Assembly: GCF_009497655.1 (NCBI RefSeq)
Contig: NZ_CP023317.1
Coordinates: 3,005,501-3,069,500 of the forward strand
Source of the DNA: Priestia megaterium
GTDB lineage: Bacteria > Bacillota > Bacilli > Bacillales > Bacillaceae_H
Direction of reading: 5' to 3'
DNA: 64,000 bases
In this document: positions 1,825 to 27,992 of the stretch, piece by piece
Numbering within the stretch: position 1 is the first letter of the stretch
Layout: every line of letters begins with the position of its first letter
Notes under the pieces: model-generated
Databases searched by the model: none
Told to the model about the DNA's origin: nothing
What the model saw: only the letters and a program-made list of their open reading frames with translations
Translations under genes and position numbers: made by a program

Positions 1825-2928
1825 TTATTGATTTTGTTCAACTGGCGTATAACCTATATACGCAGACTGCGGTCGGTAAATACGATTATTTTCTGACTGC
1901 TCTACGACATGAGCTGTCCAGCCAACTACACGGCTTGCTGTGAAGGTTGGGGTGAATAGTTCAGACGGAAGCTCAACCGCTTTCATAACTGCTGCAGCGA
2001 AATATTCTACATTGGTATAAATGCCTCTACCCGGCTTGTATTCATTGAGTAACTCAATGGTTTTATCTTCAATTTTAACAATTAAATCAAATAGCCCATT
2101 GTCTCCTGAAATTTGTTTCGATACTTCTTTTAATGCTTCTGCTCTTGGGTCATGTGTGCGATAAACGCGATGACCAAATCCCATGATTTTCTCTTTATTA
2201 TCTAATTTTTTACGAACCCAAGGCTCAATATTCTCTTCACTCCCAATTTCATCAAACATGGTAATAACACCAGAAGGAGCTCCTCCATGAAGCGGACCTT
2301 TCATCGCGCCAATTGCTCCGCATATAGCTGAAACCATGTCAGATTCGGTAGATGAAATAACGCGTGATGAGAAGGTTGAGGCATTCATTCCATGCTCAAT
2401 TGTCAAAACAAAATAGGCGTTTAGCGCCGTAACCAAACTTTGATCTGGAATTTCTCCGTTAATCATGTATAAATAGTTTGCTACATGATCCAAATGCTCG
2501 TTAGGCTCTACTACTTCTAAATCATTCATTTTACGATACCAATAGGCAATAATGGTAGGTGTTACCGCTGTAATCGCAAGCGCCTGCTCTTTTGTCGGAG
2601 GCCAGCTGTATGAAGGGTCTCCTAACGCCGAGATACATGTGCGAAGCGCGCTCATCACTTCTGTATCTTTTGGCAAACAGTCCATTAACGCAACAATATT
2701 AGCCGGAAGCGTACGATGAGTCACCATCTCTTGTTTAAATGCTTTTAACTCATCATGATTTGGCAGCGTACCGTTCCAAATTAAATAAGAAACTTCTTCA
2801 AAAGAATAATTGATGGCCAAATCTTTTGCCCAATATCCGCGATAAATCAGCTGACCTTTCTCTCCATCAACATGCCCTACTTTTGTTTCAGCTGCAACGA
2901 TTCCTTCTAGTCCTTTAACATATGTCAT
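1825..2928 (-). CDS. citA: Citrate synthase (CitA-like)
   Basis: This 367-residue enzyme condenses oxaloacetate and acetyl-CoA to citrate. Visible hallmarks are GMNASTFSSRV, the catalytic-histidine loop KGPLHGGAPSG, the oxaloacetate-binding FGHRVYRTHDPRAE, and TNVEYFAAAVM near the C-terminus. Length and motifs match B. subtilis CitA (366 residues), the minor citrate synthase encoded divergently from a LysR regulator, and the same divergent arrangement exists here. A start at MTYVKGLEG (2928) is chosen over an upstream ATG because the purine-rich GGGGGAGTGG site lies just before it. CcpA control is plausible because a perfect cre lies in the shared upstream region. Confidence 0.92.
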   Translation of the reverse strand: MTYVKGLEGIVAAETKVGHVDGEKGQLIYRGYWAKDLAINYSFEEVSYLIWNGTLPNHDELKAFKQEMVTHRTLPANIVALMDCLPKDTEVMSALRTCISALGDPSYSWPPTKEQALAITAVTPTIIAYWYRKMNDLEVVEPNEHLDHVANYLYMINGEIPDQSLVTALNAYFVLTIEHGMNASTFSSRVISSTESDMVSAICGAIGAMKGPLHGGAPSGVITMFDEIGSEENIEPWVRKKLDNKEKIMGFGHRVYRTHDPRAEALKEVSKQISGDNGLFDLIVKIEDKTIELLNEYKPGRGIYTNVEYFAAAVMKAVELPSELFTPTFTASRVVGWTAHVVEQSENNRIYRPQSAYIGYTPVEQNQ

Positions 2929-3160
2929 CTCAACCACTCCCCCAATTATTTTTAACAAACCGGCCCTTTTTTTTATGTACGGCTCGTTTGCAGAATGAAT
3001 AGACTCACCTTAGTGGTGCACTATACCATTTTATTCCTCTTTCTTAATTGTCAGAACAGTATACAAAATGAACATTTCAACACGTGTTATTTCTGCGCTC
3101 GCGGCTTTGTTTTACGGGAGAAAAAAATATTTTTTAGGATTTTCTTCGAGGGTACTTTTT

Positions 3161-3174
3161 TGTTAACGCTTACA
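3161..3174. promoter_or_regulatory. CcpA cre site (perfect consensus match)
   Basis: TGTTAACGCTTACA fits the published cre consensus TGWNANCGNTNWCA at every position. It lies between citA and the LysR gene, about 230 bp upstream of citA. Carbon-catabolite control of either gene is an inference from placement. Confidence 0.7.
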
Positions 3175-3255
3175 AATATGCGGGTTTCTAACGTATTTAG
3201 AGGAATTTGATGTGCTATTTTTAGATGAATCACTATTCACTTCCTTATGTAAGAG

Positions 3256-4482: not shown

Positions 4483-5307
4483 TTAACTCACATTTTTATT
4501 CACAGCAATAATTTCACTTAGGTTATTCATATAAATAATTTGATCACCAAAGGTTCTATTTTTCAAAGCAGCCGTATGGTGCGGTTTCATGCCAATAATA
4601 TAGCATGTGATCCCCATAAGATAGAAGGACTGCATAAAGCCTGCAAAAGCTTGAATTCCTTCGGTTGTTAATATATCTAGGCCGCCAAAGTCAAATAGAA
4701 GCGTGGTGTAATTTCCTTCATGTGCAAAGTTTTGCAAAATGGACGTATTTTCAGCTACAAGAGCTGTGTCTAAGTCTCCAAAAAGAGGTATAAGCCCTAC
4801 TTTAGAGGATAATTTAATAAAAGAAGCGGACAATTGCTTAATTTTTTGTAATGATTTTTCGAGACGTTCTTTTTGTTCAAGCAGTTCAAAATCTGTATCT
4901 GCTAATCGTTTCCGATGGTCTTGAACAAGATTCGTTAGCTCTTGTATACGTTCATCTTGGCGAATACAAACTAAATGACCTATATCACTATCCCATTGAA
5001 TTAAGCATTCAAACAGTGAATACGGCGAATCATTGGTTTGCATCACAAGCTCTACTTTCTGAATAGCCTGGCCTCGGCTTTGGACAAGCGTTTGCTCATC
5101 ATGGGGTTCGTCTACAGACAATTCTCGAGAATCTTTTTGGCGCAAGCTTAAAAACTTTCTCGCCTTTTCTTGACTAAATACGTCTACAAGATCTAAAAAA
5201 TTAGCTGAAGGCTTAAATAAATGACCTGATTGTTGCGACCATTCCAAAATATTAAATTCAGTATCCACTAGAAAGTAAGGAATTGGAACATATTCAAGCA
5301 TCGACAT
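4483..5307 (-). CDS. PAS-like/STAS protein, RsbR-type stressosome paralogue coupled to a B12 sensor
   Basis: A 274-residue cytoplasmic protein. Residues 1-110 look like a degenerate PAS sensor (PIPYFLVDTEFNILEW), about 115-160 form a charged coiled coil, and about 160-274 are a STAS domain. The STAS part keeps the RsbR-style LIPLFGDLDT with threonine and DILTTEGIQ, the two regions that hold RsbT-phosphorylated threonines in B. subtilis RsbRA. The ATG overlaps the upstream B12-binding gene by 14 nt and uses an AAAGGAG site inside it, so the two are translationally coupled. RsbR paralogues assemble with RsbS and RsbT to control SigB; the specific role here is inferred. Confidence 0.82.
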   Translation of the reverse strand: MSMLEYVPIPYFLVDTEFNILEWSQQSGHLFKPSANFLDLVDVFSQEKARKFLSLRQKDSRELSVDEPHDEQTLVQSRGQAIQKVELVMQTNDSPYSLFECLIQWDSDIGHLVCIRQDERIQELTNLVQDHRKRLADTDFELLEQKERLEKSLQKIKQLSASFIKLSSKVGLIPLFGDLDTALVAENTSILQNFAHEGNYTTLLFDFGGLDILTTEGIQAFAGFMQSFYLMGITCYIIGMKPHHTAALKNRTFGDQIIYMNNLSEIIAVNKNVS

Positions 5308-5959
5308 TAACTTCCACTCCTTTGTGATAACTGATTAACCAGTTATTTAGTTGGTAAAGATCCGGAATTAGGCGTGTATGCTCAGAACAGTAAGAACGGA
5401 AATCAATTTGAGAAACTAAACGCCCTCCTACCATTACTGTTGGTCTTGATTCTAATTTGTCCAAAGTTTTGGTATATTCAGCAAGCCTCTCAATATGATA
5501 AGGAATGCTGACAGATAATCCTACCATGTGCGGCTTCCATTCTATAGCCATTTTCTCAGCGTATTCCAGAGGTAGATTGGCCCCTAAAAAGCGAGTATTC
5601 CAACCATGTTCCTCAAACAATAAAGCCACCATCTTTAAACCAATGAAGTGCTGTTCTTGTTCCAAGCATAGAAGCAGTGCCCTTGGAGCAGTGTCTGAAG
5701 CGTGTCCCTGAATTTTTTTATAAAAGCGATAGCGAGTTAGCACATAATCACACGTCGTAGTTGCAACATGCTCATCAGCTACAGAAATGATATTTTCTTC
5801 CCACATATCTCCAGTTACTCGCATTGCGGTTGTAATTAAATTTTCATAAATATCTAGGCTGTTCTTTCCCTGTTGGATTTCTTCCAGCACAACTTCCCAA
5901 GCGCTGTCTTGATCACCAGCTAATAAATAGCCTACAAATTTTTGTACTTGAGATTTCAT
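5294..5959 (-). CDS. Cobalamin-binding protein with CarH-like photoreceptor motifs
   Basis: This 221-residue protein is a four-helix bundle followed by a B12-binding Rossmann domain, with no DNA-binding domain. It carries W53-x9-E63-H64 (MWEENIISVADEH), the helix-bundle signature of adenosylcobalamin light sensors such as CarH, and E102-x-H104-x-x-G107, the lower-ligand motif. The residue after W53 is Glu, not the His that serves as upper ligand in Thermus CarH. It is the first gene of a two-gene unit with a STAS protein, so a signal from B12 and/or light to the stressosome is a reasonable inference. An alternative is a simple B12 or corrinoid sensor. Confidence 0.85.
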   Translation of the reverse strand: MKSQVQKFVGYLLAGDQDSAWEVVLEEIQQGKNSLDIYENLITTAMRVTGDMWEENIISVADEHVATTTCDYVLTRYRFYKKIQGHASDTAPRALLLCLEQEQHFIGLKMVALLFEEHGWNTRFLGANLPLEYAEKMAIEWKPHMVGLSVSIPYHIERLAEYTKTLDKLESRPTVMVGGRLVSQIDFRSYCSEHTRLIPDLYQLNNWLISYHKGVEVNVDA

Positions 5960-6064
5960 TGTTTCACCTCAGTAAACGTAAAGCTTTTAAGAAACTTGAA
6001 TAAAAGCTTCTCGTCTCTCTTTTTCAAGATCGCCTAAAATGTATACCACTTTTAGACTAACACA

Positions 6065-6081
6065 TGTTGCCAATAGCAACA
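6065..6081. promoter_or_regulatory. Inverted repeat upstream of the B12-sensor gene, possible operator
   Basis: TGTTGC-CAATA-GCAACA is a perfect 6-bp dyad about 105 bp before the start codon. No regulator can be assigned. Confidence 0.35.
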
Positions 6082-6174
6082 ATATAAAAATAGAATAATA
6101 ACTTTTTATTTTACTACACTCAGTAAAACATGACTAGTATTTCTTTAAATATTCTCCTTTCCCTTTTATTTGCG

Positions 6175-6209
6175 AAAAACACCTCGGCATTTTTTACCGA
6201 GGTGTTTTT
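6175..6209 (-). terminator. Terminator downstream of small membrane protein gene
   Basis: Strong stem AAAAACACCTCGG / CCGAGGTGTTTTT with A/T flanks on both sides. It lies about 100 bp past the stop of the minus-strand gene. Confidence 0.8.
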
Positions 6210-6311
6210 CCAGTTGTCATCATTTCGGCTCAAAGAATGTAAGTTCGTCTCGTTCTCTTTTAAGCATTTCTACTTATCTTCCACTTTCAATAGACTTTCA
6301 AACATATGTAT

Positions 6312-6575
6312 TTATGACTCTTCTGTTCCCACCATAATACTGATAAGATAGAGCGCTGTCATAACTGAGCCGATTGTATTGCATATCAAATGAATATATT
6401 GGCTGGTCGCCATAAACAAGTATAAACTTAGCAACAGCAGCACCGTTCCGAACAAAAAAGACCATTTAAAGAATGACAGTGGCCGCTTAAACTTTATACG
6501 CAAACAAAAAATGAGAATAAAGCCTACTAGCGCCATCACAAAGAAACTAACGTTAAATAAATTGATAGTTATCAC
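6312..6575 (-). CDS. Small three-helix membrane protein, unknown function
   Basis: An 87-residue, very hydrophobic protein with segments around residues 8-25, 37-55 and 62-82. The start is GTG at 6575, preceded by GGGAG about 11 nt upstream. It lies between the B12/STAS pair and divergently transcribed ytvA and is followed by its own terminator. I do not recognise the family. It has the hydrophobicity pattern of a real membrane protein rather than a shadow frame. Confidence 0.6.
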   Translation of the reverse strand: MITINLFNVSFFVMALVGFILIFCLRIKFKRPLSFFKWSFLFGTVLLLLSLYLFMATSQYIHLICNTIGSVMTALYLISIMVGTEES

Positions 6576-6728
6576 ATTTGTTCACACTCCCTTTGCCCCC
6601 CAAAACTATTATAACATATTTTTCCTTATCTTCATTCTTTCTCTAGAAGCAAACGCGTCGAAAATTGTTTTTTAAACGTATTTATGTCACAATATTTTTA
6701 TAAAAATTCCAAGGAATGAGGGAATGCA

Positions 6729-7511
6729 TTGACTCCACCTGAAGCTCAAGATTCAAAATGGTCCATTTTAAATAAAGCCCTTCATAGTTCGCAATCTGGT
6801 ATTATCGTGACGGATCCTTCTTTACCTGATAATCCAATTATTTACCTCAACCAAGGGTTTTCCCTTATGACCGGCTATAAGGAAGAAGAAGTATTAGGGG
6901 AAAATTGCCGTTTTCTACAAGGGCCTCTTACAAGCCCGCACCACGTTGATGAAATTCGCAGCGCTATCAGCCGCAATCAGTCAGTTTCTGTTACGCTTGT
7001 GAATTATCGAAAAGACGGCTCTTTCTTTCATAATCAGCTAACGATTGACCCGACATATGTAGAGGAAGAAGATAAATACTACTTTATTGGTGTTCAAAAA
7101 GACGTAACAATAGAGATTACAGCCCAGGAACAGCTTCAGCAAGCTTTAGAAGAAGTGGAAAGGCTATCCACTCCTATCGTGCCAATAGAAGAAGGAATCT
7201 CTGTTCTTCCATTAATCGGAACTTTAAACGAGCGGCGTATAGAAATGCTATTTAATAGCTTCACCTCGCGTAACACAAGCAGCAAAGATCGTTACTTAAT
7301 CGTAGACGTCTCAGGGTTAGCTGGATTTAACGATTCATTCGGCCGTGATATTCTTAATATTTACAATTGGCTGAAGCTAATGGGAACTCAGCTCGTTTTA
7401 ACCGGAATTTCCCCTAACATGGCCATACATATGAGCACTATAGAAGATGATATGTCCTTTATTTTAGTCTATCAAAGCATTAAAGATGCCTTACCGAAGC
7501 TAAAGCTATAA
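6729..7511 (+). CDS. ytvA: Blue-light photoreceptor YtvA (LOV-STAS)
   Basis: This 260-residue orthologue of B. subtilis YtvA (261 residues) has an N-terminal LOV domain with GENCRFLQG, where Cys60 is the flavin-adduct cysteine. A linker helix (about 125-145) and a C-terminal STAS domain from the STPIVPIEEGIS segment follow. YtvA joins the stressosome and raises SigB activity under blue light. As in B. subtilis, the STAS domain lacks the phosphorylatable threonines. The start is TTG at 6729, preceded by GAGGG; no better start exists. The gene stands alone, near other RsbR-type genes. Confidence 0.95.
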   Translation: MTPPEAQDSKWSILNKALHSSQSGIIVTDPSLPDNPIIYLNQGFSLMTGYKEEEVLGENCRFLQGPLTSPHHVDEIRSAISRNQSVSVTLVNYRKDGSFFHNQLTIDPTYVEEEDKYYFIGVQKDVTIEITAQEQLQQALEEVERLSTPIVPIEEGISVLPLIGTLNERRIEMLFNSFTSRNTSSKDRYLIVDVSGLAGFNDSFGRDILNIYNWLKLMGTQLVLTGISPNMAIHMSTIEDDMSFILVYQSIKDALPKLKL

Positions 7512-7573
7512 GCGCAAGAAGTGATGCCTTATGAAAAAGAGTTAAAATGCATGAAGATGTTAGTTAAAAAATG

Positions 7574-7598
7574 TTTATTTTTTAATAAATTGGGTTTG
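7574..7598 (+). promoter_or_regulatory. Candidate SigB promoter for the RsbR paralogue
   Basis: GTTTAT (7574-7579), a 13-bp spacer and GGGTTT (7593-7598) resemble the SigB consensus GTTTAA-N12-14-GGGWAW. The implied leader is about 145 nt and contains the hairpin at 7666-7696. Confidence 0.4.
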
Positions 7599-7665
7599 AG
7601 AGTTTACAGTTGGGGAAAACAAGGCGTATAGGAAAATAAATGCGCTTCATAATGGATTTATTTAT

Positions 7666-7696
7666 AAGCATCCGCACTCTATGTCAGTGGATGCTT
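7666..7696 (+). terminator. Hairpin between ytvA and rsbR paralogue (terminator or leader structure)
   Basis: AAGCATCC and GGATGCTT arms with an extra ACT/AGT pairing form a stable stem. The following T-run is short (TTTTAT). It may end the ytvA transcript or sit in the leader of the next gene. Confidence 0.45.
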
Positions 7697-7749
7697 TTAT
7701 GCCTTTATTTATAAAACAATTAGACTATACATATGTAAGGAGAGTCTTC

Positions 7750-8583
7750 ATGCATAGAAATCAGGACCTATATCATTTTTTTAAAGAACATTCTCTTCAA
7801 TTAACTGAAGACTGGTACAATCAGCTCGACGATGAAAACGAGTTCTCCGTGTATTCGAGTAAAAATCCAGTAATTGTGAAAGAACTGAAGCAGCAAAATC
7901 AAGATTATTTTCAGCATTTATTTGACGTATTTATAAAAGATGAGGAATACTTTTTTTCCGATTTCCAGCAGTGGTCGGTCGAACTTGCACGTGATCCAAA
8001 GCATTTAAGTACGCCTCTTCACTTTATCGTTCGAGAATATTTTAATTCACAAAAAATTGTCGTTAATTACTTAAAGAAGTTTATCTCTTTGCACCCAGAA
8101 GAGGTAAGCGTGGATAAGATATTTATGTGGTATGACATTATTGTTAAAGCCTTTGATCTATCTATTTATATCTTTATTCAAGAATATCATAAGAATACGC
8201 AAGAACAGCTGAACGCTCAGAAAGAGTTAATTAATGAATTAAGTTCTCCTGTTATCATGCTTCAAAACAAAGTTGCCCTTCTGCCTCTTGTGGGGGATAT
8301 TGGAACGGTCAAAAGTCAGTTTATTTTAGAAAACACGCTTCAGCAATGCTCGGAAAAAGGCGTTGAACATTTATGTATTGACCTGCTCGGTGTAGCTACG
8401 ATTGACACGATGATGGCACAAGAGATTTTTAATTTGGTAAAAGCTCTTCGTTTAATTGGGGTGGAAACCATTTTATCTGGAATTCGACCGGAAATTTCTC
8501 AAACTGCAATTCGCTTAGGGCTTTCATTTGAACAGGTCAAGACTACTTCTTCTCTTGCACAGGCGCTTAATTCTATTAGTTAA
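7750..8583 (+). CDS. RsbR-family stressosome protein (globin-like N-terminus, STAS C-terminus)
   Basis: This 277-residue protein has a helical N-terminal sensor of the non-haem-globin RsbR type (MHRNQDLYHFFKEHS, residues 1-145) and a C-terminal STAS domain. It keeps LPLVGDIGT and ATIDTMMAQEIF, matching the regions of the two RsbRA phosphothreonines, and ends with LSGIRPEISQTAIRLGL as in B. subtilis RsbR paralogues. ATG 7750 is chosen because TAAGGAG lies just upstream. Inferred role: co-assembly with RsbS/RsbT, whose genes are not in the window, to tune SigB. Confidence 0.9.
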   Translation: MHRNQDLYHFFKEHSLQLTEDWYNQLDDENEFSVYSSKNPVIVKELKQQNQDYFQHLFDVFIKDEEYFFSDFQQWSVELARDPKHLSTPLHFIVREYFNSQKIVVNYLKKFISLHPEEVSVDKIFMWYDIIVKAFDLSIYIFIQEYHKNTQEQLNAQKELINELSSPVIMLQNKVALLPLVGDIGTVKSQFILENTLQQCSEKGVEHLCIDLLGVATIDTMMAQEIFNLVKALRLIGVETILSGIRPEISQTAIRLGLSFEQVKTTSSLAQALNSIS

Positions 8584-10618: not shown

Positions 10619-10815
10619 TTCATGTCTCCTTTCTCTTCTAAATTATGTTCCTTTTTCTATTATATACTAGTTAGTCTATTTTCTATGACTCTATCCCAGT
10701 TCTTAAGTCCTTTTCCAAGTTTTTTTATTTTTTTTGTTATTCTATGAATAGTTTTATTTTAAGTGGGGTACTAACCTATATAAGCAATACATCATTAAAA
10801 AGGAGGATGATATTT

Positions 10816-11079
10816 ATGTCATTTTTATGGGCACTTATTGTAGGTGGTATTATTGGGTGGCTTGCCGGATTAATTACGGGAAGAGACGTTCCAGGAGGTA
10901 TTATTGGTAACATTATTGCTGGTTTTATAGGTTCTTGGTTAGGTTCAGCTATCTTTGGAAGCTTCGGACCAGTTGTAGGTGGATTTGCTATTATTCCTGC
11001 CATTATCGGATCAATCATTTTAGTATTAATCGTAAGTTTCATTATGAGAAAAATGCGTGGTAGTCATAAACATGCATAA
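10816..11079 (+). CDS. GlsB/YeaQ/YmgE-family stress membrane protein
   Basis: An 87-residue, three-helix membrane protein with the family's glycine-rich pattern: GGIIGWLAG, GRDVPGGIIGNIIAGFIGSW and GFAIIPAIIGS. B. subtilis relatives YwzA and YdaS are general-stress genes under SigB; their biochemical role is unknown. A strong AAAGGAGG site precedes ATG 10816. GGGGTAC, a good SigB-like -10, occurs about 45 bp upstream but without a well-spaced -35. A near-identical paralogue lies at 12632-12901. Confidence 0.9.
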   Translation: MSFLWALIVGGIIGWLAGLITGRDVPGGIIGNIIAGFIGSWLGSAIFGSFGPVVGGFAIIPAIIGSIILVLIVSFIMRKMRGSHKHA

Positions 11080-11465: not shown

Positions 11466-12281
11466 TTAGTCCGCTTGATTAACATATTCCACTGCTTGGT
11501 GAAGGCTACTGAAAGTTGTAATATCAGCCAAATCTAACCCTAAGTTCACCATCGTCTGAGCAATTTCAGCACGGATACCGCTTAAAACTACTTGAATTCC
11601 TAATAATTTTAAAGCACCGATTACTTTGAAAATTTGGTCCGCTACCATCGTATCAATAATTGGAACTGCGTATAAATCAATAATCAGCCAATTTAGCTTG
11701 TACTCGCTGCCGTGCTGAAGGGCATTTTCCATTAAAATTTGAGCACGATTTGTATCTAAATCGCCAACAAGAGGAATCACGCCAATTTCTTTCGTAATGC
11801 GTACCACAGGAATTGAAAGTTCATCAATTGCATAGCGAGCCGATTGAATTTTGTTTGCAAAGTCGGTCATATACGATTTACTAACCCAGTGCACAGCCTT
11901 GTCCACTACTAAGTTGAAACGAGAAATAACTTGATAGAAGGCATCAAACGTAAACGTTTCAGCTTTTGCTTCTTCTTTAATAATTTCCCCGATAATATTT
12001 CGGTAATAGCTGATTTCTTCTAATGCTACATCTAACGGAAGCTGAAGAGTAACGAGTAAATTCGCTACTTCTCTTCCCCATTCCTCAAGCACTTCAAAGT
12101 TTTTCGTATCATTTGTTGATACAGAATCAGCGTATATTTTAATTAAATGAACGCGCCACGGTTCTAACTGTTGTTGAATATCTTTGTCTTCATCTTGTTT
12201 TTGTTTTGAGAACTCTTCTTTTTTTTCTAGAATTAAATTCGTAATGTGTTTAAGCTTTTTATCTAATAATAATGACTCCAT
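11466..12281 (-). CDS. RsbR-family stressosome protein (RsbRC/RsbRD-like)
   Basis: This 271-residue protein has an N-terminal helical sensor (residues 1-150) rich in charge and a C-terminal STAS domain. Both phosphothreonine regions are intact: IPLVGDLDTNRA and PIIDTMVADQIF. The end LSGIRAEIAQTMVNLGLDL matches B. subtilis RsbR paralogues. It is the third RsbR-type STAS protein with intact threonines in 8 kb. A minus-strand TATCAT -10 lies shortly upstream. Its signal is unknown. Confidence 0.9.
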   Translation of the reverse strand: MESLLLDKKLKHITNLILEKKEEFSKQKQDEDKDIQQQLEPWRVHLIKIYADSVSTNDTKNFEVLEEWGREVANLLVTLQLPLDVALEEISYYRNIIGEIIKEEAKAETFTFDAFYQVISRFNLVVDKAVHWVSKSYMTDFANKIQSARYAIDELSIPVVRITKEIGVIPLVGDLDTNRAQILMENALQHGSEYKLNWLIIDLYAVPIIDTMVADQIFKVIGALKLLGIQVVLSGIRAEIAQTMVNLGLDLADITTFSSLHQAVEYVNQAD

Positions 12282-12631: not shown

Positions 12632-12901
12632 ATGTCATTTATTTGGACGCTTATTGTTGGAGGACTTATCGGCTGGCTTGCTGGTGTGTTAACAGGACGA
12701 GATGTTCCAGGTGGAATTATCGGAAACATCATCGCTGGTTTCATTGGAGCATGGTTAGGCTCTCTAATTTTTGGAGATTTCGGTCCAGAGATCGGCGGAT
12801 TCGCAATTGTTCCTGCAATTATTGGTGCTGTTATTTTAGTTTTAATTGTGAGTTTTGTTTTACGCAAAATGCGCGGAAATAATAATCATCGACACGCCTA
12901 A
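12632..12901 (+). CDS. GlsB/YeaQ/YmgE-family stress membrane protein (paralogue)
   Basis: An 89-residue paralogue of the 10816-11079 protein, with the same GGLIGWLAG, GRDVPGGIIGNIIAGFIG and GFAIVPAIIGA blocks and a His-rich tail (NNNHRHA). Divergence is mainly at codon third positions and a few residues, which suggests an older duplication. AAAAGGAGG precedes the ATG and a strong terminator follows. Confidence 0.9.
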   Translation: MSFIWTLIVGGLIGWLAGVLTGRDVPGGIIGNIIAGFIGAWLGSLIFGDFGPEIGGFAIVPAIIGAVILVLIVSFVLRKMRGNNNHRHA

Positions 12902-27179: not shown

Positions 27180-27330
27180 TAAAACAAAAAATGAAACATA
27201 ACGACATCCAGGAAACCTACGTTCACCCTACCAATGAAAAAATCCGAACGGGTTGAATTCTTTATCAAGAATCAAACGCGTTCGGATTTTCTTTCAACTA
27301 AAACACTTTGGTCCTAGCTTCTTTTTAAAG
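27180..27330. repeat. Dispersed terminator element, copy A
   Basis: A left arm AAATGAAACATAACGACATCC, a block CCTACGTTCACCCTACCAATG, a stem AAAATCCGAACG (27239-27250) / CGTTCGGATTTT (27279-27290), and a right arm ending CTAGCTTCTTTTT. The order and sequence match three other intergenic copies in this window. It is upstream of the lipoprotein and overlaps the 3' end of the next minus-strand gene. Confidence 0.7.
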
Positions 27331-27690
27331 CTGCTGTTGCTTCAATATATGATTCGCTTCTTCTAAGTAAGTCACATACGCCTGTACTTGTTTATCACCG
27401 TAATTATCTAGTTCAAACAGCGCTTCTTGTATAAAATTAAAATTATCAATAATATGCTGTGTTTTCATGCCTCGGCTTGTGAGTAAATTGTTTAACCATA
27501 AGGCATAGTCCGTAAAAATTTGCAGGTTGTCTAACTTATATGTTGTCTCGAGATACTTCATATGATAATGATTATCTTCATGGCATCTTTCTTTGCCGCG
27601 CTCTCCGAATTTTTCGAGCAAAGAAGGTTCTAACTCGTAGATTTTCTCCGTTACTCTTTCGACGATCTTATTAACGGGAAGTGAACTCAT
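27325..27690 (-). CDS. Helical protein coupled to a haem monooxygenase
   Basis: A 121-residue, all-helical cytoplasmic protein with LEKFGERGKERCHEDNHYHM (one Cys, three His) followed by LDNLQIFTDYALWLNNLL. Its ATG overlaps the stop of the monooxygenase gene by 4 nt (ATGA), so the two are translationally coupled. The His/Cys cluster could bind a metal or haem, which is inference. The family looks familiar from other bacilli but has no function that I can name. Confidence 0.72.
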   Translation of the reverse strand: MSSLPVNKIVERVTEKIYELEPSLLEKFGERGKERCHEDNHYHMKYLETTYKLDNLQIFTDYALWLNNLLTSRGMKTQHIIDNFNFIQEALFELDNYGDKQVQAYVTYLEEANHILKQQQL

Positions 27691-27992
27691 CGTGCCACCA
27701 CTTTGTACTGAGAAACTTTTGGGATGACGGCTGCCAGTTCTTGATCAGGGTACTTTTTCTCTAAATCATGAATACGCTTGAAATCTTCGCTTCGTACCCA
27801 GCTTAAATAATTCTCTTTCGTATCAAATGTAAGCTGAACGGTGAGCTCCCCTGCTCGCTTATCGTTTTGAAGAAGTAGAAAGTCTACAAATCCTGGAGCC
27901 TCGTCGACTGATTTTGAACGATTTTTATAAATTCCAATCACTTCTTCAGCTTTTTCATCCGGTACATTAAATGTTGAAAATACGGTGTACAT
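27687..27992 (-). CDS. Antibiotic-biosynthesis-monooxygenase-fold protein, HmoA-like haem monooxygenase
   Basis: A 101-residue protein of the ABM ferredoxin-like fold: FNVPDEKAEEVIGIYKNRSK, then APGFVDFLLLQND, TVQLTFDTKENYLSWV and SEDFKRIH. This is the layout of B. subtilis HmoA and other IsdG-type haem-degrading monooxygenases. GGGAGG precedes the ATG. The family also contains non-haem members, so the activity is inferred. Confidence 0.8.
   Translation of the reverse strand: MYTVFSTFNVPDEKAEEVIGIYKNRSKSVDEAPGFVDFLLLQNDKRAGELTVQLTFDTKENYLSWVRSEDFKRIHDLEKKYPDQELAAVIPKVSQYKVVAR

Follow-up and report, generated by a model that had tools for sequence, protein, structure and literature searches.

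Why should a cobalamin-binding protein without a DNA-binding domain be encoded together with a protein of the stressosome type? This question is raised by two overlapping genes in a 64,000-nucleotide stretch of Priestia megaterium DNA (the window; contig NZ_CP023317.1, positions 3,005,501 to 3,069,500), which is part of the main contig of a 5.24-Mb genome. On balance, we favor the answer that the pair belongs to a split photocobilin-like sensor, using B12 and probably a bilin, that acts through a PAS adaptor and here on the stressosome. The direct basis of this reading is the gene pairing, the predicted domain folds, conserved residues, co-occurrence, and linkage. The two genes and their junction are as follows.

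5294..5959, minus strand: stand-alone cobalamin-binding protein, 221 amino acids (Pfam, alignment, and PDB sequence matches).
4483..5307, minus strand: partner protein, 274 amino acids, with an N-terminal PAS-like domain, a long signal helix, and a C-terminal STAS domain of the RsbR/YtvA type (Pfam STAS, AlphaFold2, and fold search).
5294..5323, minus strand: 14-nucleotide overlap of the two genes (5294-5307) and a ribosome-binding-site-like AAAGGAG (5317-5323) within the B12 gene (sequence reading).

The B12 protein consists of a four-helix B12-binding_2 domain and a Rossmann-type B12-binding domain, which scored 48.9 bits (cut-off 23) and 57.6 bits (cut-off 32.1) in Pfam, respectively. An earlier note on this DNA had described a stand-alone protein with the CarH-type motifs W-x9-EH and ExHxxG, and this description was confirmed. 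W53, E63, and H64, together with E102, H104, and G107, were the same in all 19 aligned homologues, which were our own choice among the fetched loci, and the B12 domains were the only ones detected by Pfam and NCBIfam, with no MerR-type DNA-binding domain. CarH/LitR and AerR are cobalamin-binding light regulators, and AerR is itself a stand-alone B12 protein that acts on a partner, the repressor CrtJ. Like CarH/LitR, the window protein has a two-part B12 domain with W-x9-EH and E/DxHxxG, but it lacks the MerR domain of CarH, and it scored 46.3 bits with the NCBIfam CarH model, the cut-off of which is 400. Its PDB sequence matches included photocobilins (8j2w, 8j2x, and 8j2y, among the best), CarH (5c8a), and, weakly, AerR (7te2; E 0.0028). 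In L041, a Priestia aryabhattai locus, the B12 protein is 99% identical to that of the window.

The same protein might instead be a methyl-carrying corrinoid protein of the MtaC or MetH type, with the STAS gene a mere passenger, and the NCBIfam models for MtaC and other corrinoid proteins did match it below their cut-offs. We regard this reading as very improbable and disfavored it: the W-x9-EH motif is invariant, the conserved neighbors are signaling genes, and no methyltransferase was recognized by eye among the open reading frames around the pair, where no dedicated search was made. Upstream of the B12 gene, an imperfect inverted repeat, CTAAAA-N10-TTTTAG (6034-6055), could be an operator. 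An Rfam scan of the window returned no family at the gathering score. The earlier note also took the two genes to be coupled; the 14-nucleotide overlap and the AAAGGAG-like site before the ATG of the partner gene are both present, and from these we infer translational coupling.

In the partner protein, Pfam recognized the STAS domain alone (25.6 bits; cut-off 22.6) and missed the PAS domain. The AlphaFold2 model, built from 18 sequences, began with a PAS-like domain, continued in a helix of 42 residues, and ended in the STAS domain, with a mean predicted local distance difference test score (pLDDT) of 83 and a predicted template modeling score (pTM) of 0.47; because of this pTM, the relative placing of the domains is unsure. 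When the model was searched against PDB folds, full-length YtvA (2mwg) was the best match (E 1.4e-9), followed by SpoIIAA, RsbS, and the RsbR of the Listeria stressosome. The predicted structure and the fold search thus both give the stressosome-type layout of N-terminal sensor, helical linker, and C-terminal STAS domain. In the accessible text of PMC8508746, YtvA and the RsbR paralogues have the same layout. The partner differs from them in that its PAS domain lacks the LOV sequence NCRFLQ, the STAS domain of its family lacks conserved threonine sites, and a separate B12 protein apparently provides its signal.

The pairing is conserved. With two short peptide patterns, 54 B12 loci were found in genome contigs, near relatives being favored; 36 were assigned to Bacillales and 18 to other orders. 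A PAS-helix partner lay directly downstream of the B12 gene in all 36 Bacillales loci, with a STAS domain in 26, a short phosphotransfer-like stub (by eye) in 6, a full histidine kinase in 2, and a truncated product in 2. None of the 18 non-Bacillales loci matched the PAS-adaptor profile; by eye, several of them are followed by a gene for a histidine kinase or a globin. An evenly spread sample of 249 genomes from the order was also searched with profiles or queries for B12, PAS, photoglobin, and RsbT. The B12 profile matched in 112 genomes, the PAS profile in 110, and both in 106. A PAS gene followed within 200 nucleotides of 118 of the 133 B12 matches, so the co-occurrence that the earlier note had proposed as a check was found in both samples. 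By open-frame length, 79 of these 118 partners were STAS-size (240-310 residues), the commonest output class, 28 were short (below 240), and 11 were histidine-kinase-size (340 or more); for the 36 fetched loci, these length-based classes were confirmed with profiles or by reading.

Fifteen of the 133 B12 matches had no partner, one of them (G098) being the second piece of a split gene, the other piece of which does have a partner. Four partner-less loci were read (L151-L154), and L151 contains ABM, photoglobin, and B12 genes alone. Broken copies were also seen: in L029 and L053 (Priestia flexa) the partner is truncated and the B12 gene intact, and in L050 (Bacillus taeanensis) the B12 frame is interrupted and the partner intact. 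The window genome has three B12-PAS pairs, namely the window pair and two others, given here in the coordinates of their own loci.

L004, 1231-1890: B12 protein; 1877-2629: PAS-STAS protein, again with a 14-nucleotide overlap.
L008, 1273-1911: B12 protein; 1908-2528: PAS protein without STAS domain.

By eye, the end of the L008 partner resembles a phosphotransfer stub without an ATPase, and a histidine-kinase-like gene (2525-3196, minus strand) converges on it. Just beyond the window, the same genome encodes a lone PAS-adaptor-like protein of 143 amino acids without an output domain (L156:927-1358).

A second conserved gene set connects the B12 protein with a bilin-type globin. The window copies of its genes are listed below.

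27687..27992, minus strand: ABM-fold monooxygenase, 101 amino acids, resembling the heme-degrading HmuQ/IsdG enzymes (Pfam ABM 43.5 bits, cut-off 23.1).
27325..27690, minus strand: putative photoglobin-like, bilin-binding-type globin, 121 amino acids, overlapping the ABM gene by 4 nucleotides (profile E 1.3e-40).

Heme-degrading ABM enzymes use an Asn-Trp-His catalytic triad. The window ABM protein scored 44.1 bits with NCBIfam HmuQ, below the cut-off of 130, and matched a heme-degrading monooxygenase in the PDB (8avh; E 1.9e-4) with the Trp and His aligned. ABM and photoglobin genes, in this order and overlapping, immediately precede the B12 gene in 15 of the 36 Bacillales loci (the ABM frame is shortened in L050), and the ABM orthologues tested match Pfam ABM. 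The photoglobin gene is adjacent in 17 of the 36, including 2 where it follows a histidine-kinase-type gene; in L144, from a sister Priestia, the order is B12, PAS-kinase, ABM, and photoglobin. In four distant loci (L066, L070, L071, and L079), a single open reading frame is matched by the globin profile as well as by the B12 profile. Across the 249 genomes, photoglobin was found in 94 of the 112 with B12 and in 6 of the 137 without, and a same-strand match lay no more than 3 kb from 46/79 STAS-size and 7/11 histidine-kinase-size pairs.

The model of the window photoglobin (pLDDT 93) had mostly phycobiliproteins as its best folds, with allophycocyanin (4po5) at a TM-score of 0.78; the best E value was 0.0095, and some hemoglobins appeared further down the list. 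With a family profile of 16 sequences, the best PDB matches were the photocobilin globin domain (E 0.005) and phycocyanin alpha (E 0.015). Because the profile matches and the model of the window copy both point to phycobiliproteins, the small helical protein is best read as photoglobin-like. The Pfam Phycobilisome family was passed by the L136 orthologue (24.1 bits; cut-off 22.2) and failed by the L133 orthologue and the window copy. Cys36 and Asp39 of the window protein (CxED) align with the phycobiliprotein CxRD, and across the family, where KCxED aligns to the KCARD of phycocyanin, Cys is present in 12/16 sequences and Asp in 16/16. CxRD is given as a bilin attachment motif in the accessible text of PMC10151467. 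CxED at this position is a lead toward bilin attachment and not proof of it. A photosensory role of the B12 protein, as proposed in the earlier note, gains weight from the frequent linkage of its gene to a globin of the phycobilisome type that is akin to the photocobilin globin.

The output of the B12-PAS front end varies, being a STAS domain, a histidine kinase, a stub, or a GGDEF protein. A GGDEF gene adjoins the B12 gene in L152 (1028-3396) and L154 (1041-2693). In L153 (1432-3682) the order is B12, ABM, photoglobin, and then the GGDEF gene, and L152 likewise has ABM and photoglobin genes. The GGDEF domains of L152-L154 scored 138.2, 101.0, and 105.1 bits in Pfam (cut-off 23.8), and the N-terminal ends of these proteins matched the PAS profile weakly (16-27 bits). 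As far as their sequences indicate, these loci are likely a cyclic-di-GMP output of the same front end. In a tree of 41 B12 proteins (L050 excluded; with a long-branch warning), the output types clustered, with 4 changes in all. Because the changes are few, the variety of outputs is documented by their distribution and not by many independent switches.

A connection of the STAS type with the stressosome was sought through the kinase RsbT. RsbT was present in 31 of 31 tested genomes bearing Bacillales B12 loci and in all 77 of the 249 genomes with a STAS-size partner, which span 17 families by our count from the tables, as against 5/9 genomes with a histidine-kinase-size partner only and 89/139 with no partner. 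Four lone short PAS rows (G000, G007, and two of G012) were excluded from this count, leaving the classes unaffected. Read by eye, the distance from the B12 gene to an rsbT located downstream on the same strand is 8.2-8.6 kb in 7/8 B12-positive genomes of family f21 and 6.6-7.1 kb in 8/8 of family f46, so that linkage occurs in at least two families among the RsbT places listed. In L133, the module is followed by acpS-, alr-, and ndoAI/ndoA-like genes and then by rsbR-S-T-U-V-W-sigB-rsbX-like genes. These names were given by resemblance, presuming the B. subtilis gene order for the rsb cluster, and RsbT alone was confirmed by search; L136 and L137 are arranged like L133 in the parts read. In G258, a PAS-STAS paralogue without a B12 gene (L155:1068-2244) is followed after 28 nucleotides by an RsbS-like gene, the product of which is 54% identical to the genome's own RsbS. 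A second RsbT-like gene was seen in G022, G024, G027-G029, G032, G034, and G046 (43-69% identical to the query where listed) and also in G000; a second stressosome kinase is possible in such genomes.

If the pair forms the sensor end of a photocobilin-like module split over several genes, it could work as follows. The B12 protein would bind (adenosyl)cobalamin in a pocket of the CarH/photocobilin type and would work with a separately encoded phycobilisome-type globin carrying a heme-derived bilin, which would probably be made by the ABM monooxygenase encoded beside the globin. A change of state could arise when light removes the adenosyl group, from the photochemistry of the bilin, or from an altered supply of cofactor. 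It would be handed, through direct contact, to the PAS domain of the partner translated together with the B12 protein, and the partner's long helix would relay the signal to the C-terminal output domain. The STAS output would most likely sit in or dock on the RsbR-RsbS stressosome and there alter the release of RsbT and hence the activity of SigB. In sister modules, a B12-PAS front end of the same kind would be joined to histidine kinases, GGDEF proteins, or phosphotransfer-like stubs. Within this chain, we infer that the cofactors are bound, that light is sensed, that the proteins touch, that the partner enters the stressosome, and that SigB is affected.

Several further stressosome-type genes lie near the pair in the window, outside the conserved module.

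6729..7511, plus strand: YtvA, a LOV-STAS blue-light photoreceptor (NCBIfam YtvA 334.9 bits, cut-off 250).
7750..8583, plus strand: RsbR paralogue (Pfam STAS 49.5 bits), both RsbR threonines kept.
11466..12281, minus strand: second RsbR paralogue (Pfam STAS 60.1 bits), both threonines kept, beyond the 4483..8583 region that holds the pair and the two genes above.

The YtvA protein contains NCRFLQ, which we take to be the LOV motif. Its identity and that of the first RsbR paralogue agree with the earlier note; the start of the latter is probably 7750 rather than the listed 7681, judging from an AAGGAG that precedes the ATG at 7750. Two small membrane proteins that are alike (10744-11079 and 12632-12901), presumably of the GlsB/YeaQ type, flank the second RsbR paralogue.

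A number of observations weigh against the split-sensor reading, and they fall on both its sensor and its output side. On the sensor side, the window photoglobin exceeded no Pfam cut-off (MetOD1 19.1 bits; cut-off 23.8), and the ABM-photoglobin pair of the window genome is 21 kb from the B12 pair. Photoglobin had no match in 18 of the 112 B12-positive genomes and was within 3 kb of none of the 28 short-type pairs, and 48/107 photoglobin matches lay more than 3 kb from any same-strand B12 match. Since the three B12 proteins of the window genome share one photoglobin match, cobalamin alone may suffice for the window pair. These figures bear on a different explanation, in which the module senses cofactor status: the B12 protein would report adenosylcobalamin and the globin heme breakdown products, any light sensitivity being incidental. 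The 18 genomes with B12 and without photoglobin favor it, and the cobalamin-binding residues would serve cofactor sensing and light sensing equally; the frequent linkage to a photocobilin-related globin speaks for light. We judge a pure cofactor-status sensor to be unlikely.

On the output side, the neighborhood of the pair in the window is not conserved. Within flanks of up to 4 kb, an RsbR/YtvA-type STAS gene was found at 1 of the 36 Bacillales loci, the near-identical L041, and the clustering with YtvA, which the earlier note had treated as a meaningful grouping, was discarded as evidence. The threonines fared similarly. Thr stands at both RsbR phospho-sites (the equivalents of T171 and T205) in the window partner, as the earlier note had stated, and in its near twin L041; these are the only 2 of 28 partners with Thr at each site, and 2 further partners of the 28 have Ser at the first. 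As the RsbR threonines are not conserved, classic RsbR-type phosphorylation of the partner is doubtful, and the threonines were dropped as a sign of phosphorylation by RsbT. Going by the aligned residues, the partner family does not look like a standard RsbR phosphorylation substrate. Acidic residues occupy the two columns in 15/28 and 16/28 partners, as if mimicking a fixed phosphorylated state.

The RsbT figures are uncorrected for shared ancestry, and RsbT was also present in 24/24 genomes with only short-type, STAS-less partners; RsbT therefore accompanies more than the STAS output. A SigB-type promoter was sought with the consensus GTTTAA-N12-15-GGGTAT in the 300 nucleotides upstream of 36 operons, using simple shuffles. 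The rsbV upstream region served as a control and gave a shuffle p of 0.01. No such promoter was found in the 300 nucleotides upstream of the window pair (p 0.945), and 2 of the 36 operons (L031 and L072) reached p ≤ 0.02, so the promoter was discarded as support.

These results could be explained if the PAS-STAS protein acted outside the RsbRST stressosome, in another partner-switching or STAS pathway, the co-occurrence with RsbT reflecting lineage only. The unconserved threonine sites and the presence of RsbT with STAS-less partners would fit, as would the divergence of the partner STAS domain from RsbR: it scored 34-61 bits with a home-made RsbR-type profile versus 113-169 bits with the profile of its own family, the seeds of which include several of the very sequences scored. 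Against this stand the best fold match, YtvA, which is a stressosome protein that likewise departs from the RsbR threonines (the YtvA of the window genome also lacks Thr at the phospho-site columns), the presence of RsbT in every genome with a STAS-size partner over 17 families, the rsbT linkage in two families, and the position of the L155 PAS-STAS gene directly before an RsbS-like gene. An output outside the stressosome thus appears improbable to us. The idea in the earlier note that the B12 signal reaches the stressosome through the STAS partner keeps the conserved pair and the RsbT co-occurrence as its supports and loses the threonine sites and the SigB promoter.

How does the split sensor compare with known systems? 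In the accessible text of PMC10979010, photocobilins bind B12 and biliverdin and are light-sensitive, a stand-alone photocobilin controls an enzyme by protein contact, and interaction networks give potential STAS/SpoIIE partners for the actinobacterial SasPcob (Saccharothrix). SasPcob and AbPcob resemble the Bacillales module in their CarH-like B12 domain, W/EH and E/DxH motifs, and phycobilisome-like globin, and in lacking a DNA-binding domain. They differ in that globin and B12 domains form one polypeptide, whereas the Bacillales module has separate genes, an ABM gene accompanying the globin gene, and, as its output, a PAS-STAS protein with the RsbR/YtvA fold that is translated together with the B12 protein. 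The accessible part of PMC10151467 reports that BBAG-2 globins bind biliverdin and associate with B12-binding proteins, in those Myxococcales genomes that encode heme oxygenase as well, and that BBAG-2 lacks the CxRD motif, whereas the Bacillales photoglobins carry CxED. The statement in the earlier note that no B12 photoreceptor has been described that lacks a DNA-binding domain and works through protein contact was too broad, as the published photocobilin-enzyme contact makes clear (PMC10979010, accessible text). AerR is a further example. In the literature searched, the scope of which left aside most subscription papers and Schneider 2022, no B12 or photoglobin protein was tied to the stressosome. 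Schneider 2022 reportedly described photoglobins as non-heme globins linked to B12-binding proteins and predicted B12-photoglobin signaling modules. In the proposed module, sensor parts that are already known are divided among separate genes and joined to an output that is new and can be tested. The most specific form of the proposal, a Bacillales two-pigment sensor of cobalamin and a bilin globin with its own heme-opening enzyme, working on the stressosome through the PAS-STAS protein and with its front end re-used elsewhere, is put forward tentatively.

The Priestia genome offers cobalamin and bilin as candidate ligands together with a conserved gene set, which makes the question of what most RsbR paralogues of the stressosome sense directly testable in a laboratory strain. 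Red-light effects on SigB are reported for B. subtilis and Listeria in the accessible text of PMC3019169, and a bilin-type input is of interest for this reason. The varied outputs (STAS, kinase, and GGDEF) suggest that the front end could be a natural plug-in part for optogenetics. If the two-pigment form of the proposal is true, the SigB response would gain green-to-red color vision in addition to its flavin sensor YtvA, with histidine kinases and diguanylate cyclases as further outputs of this front end. The gene set suggests that light or pigment signals may feed the general stress switch.

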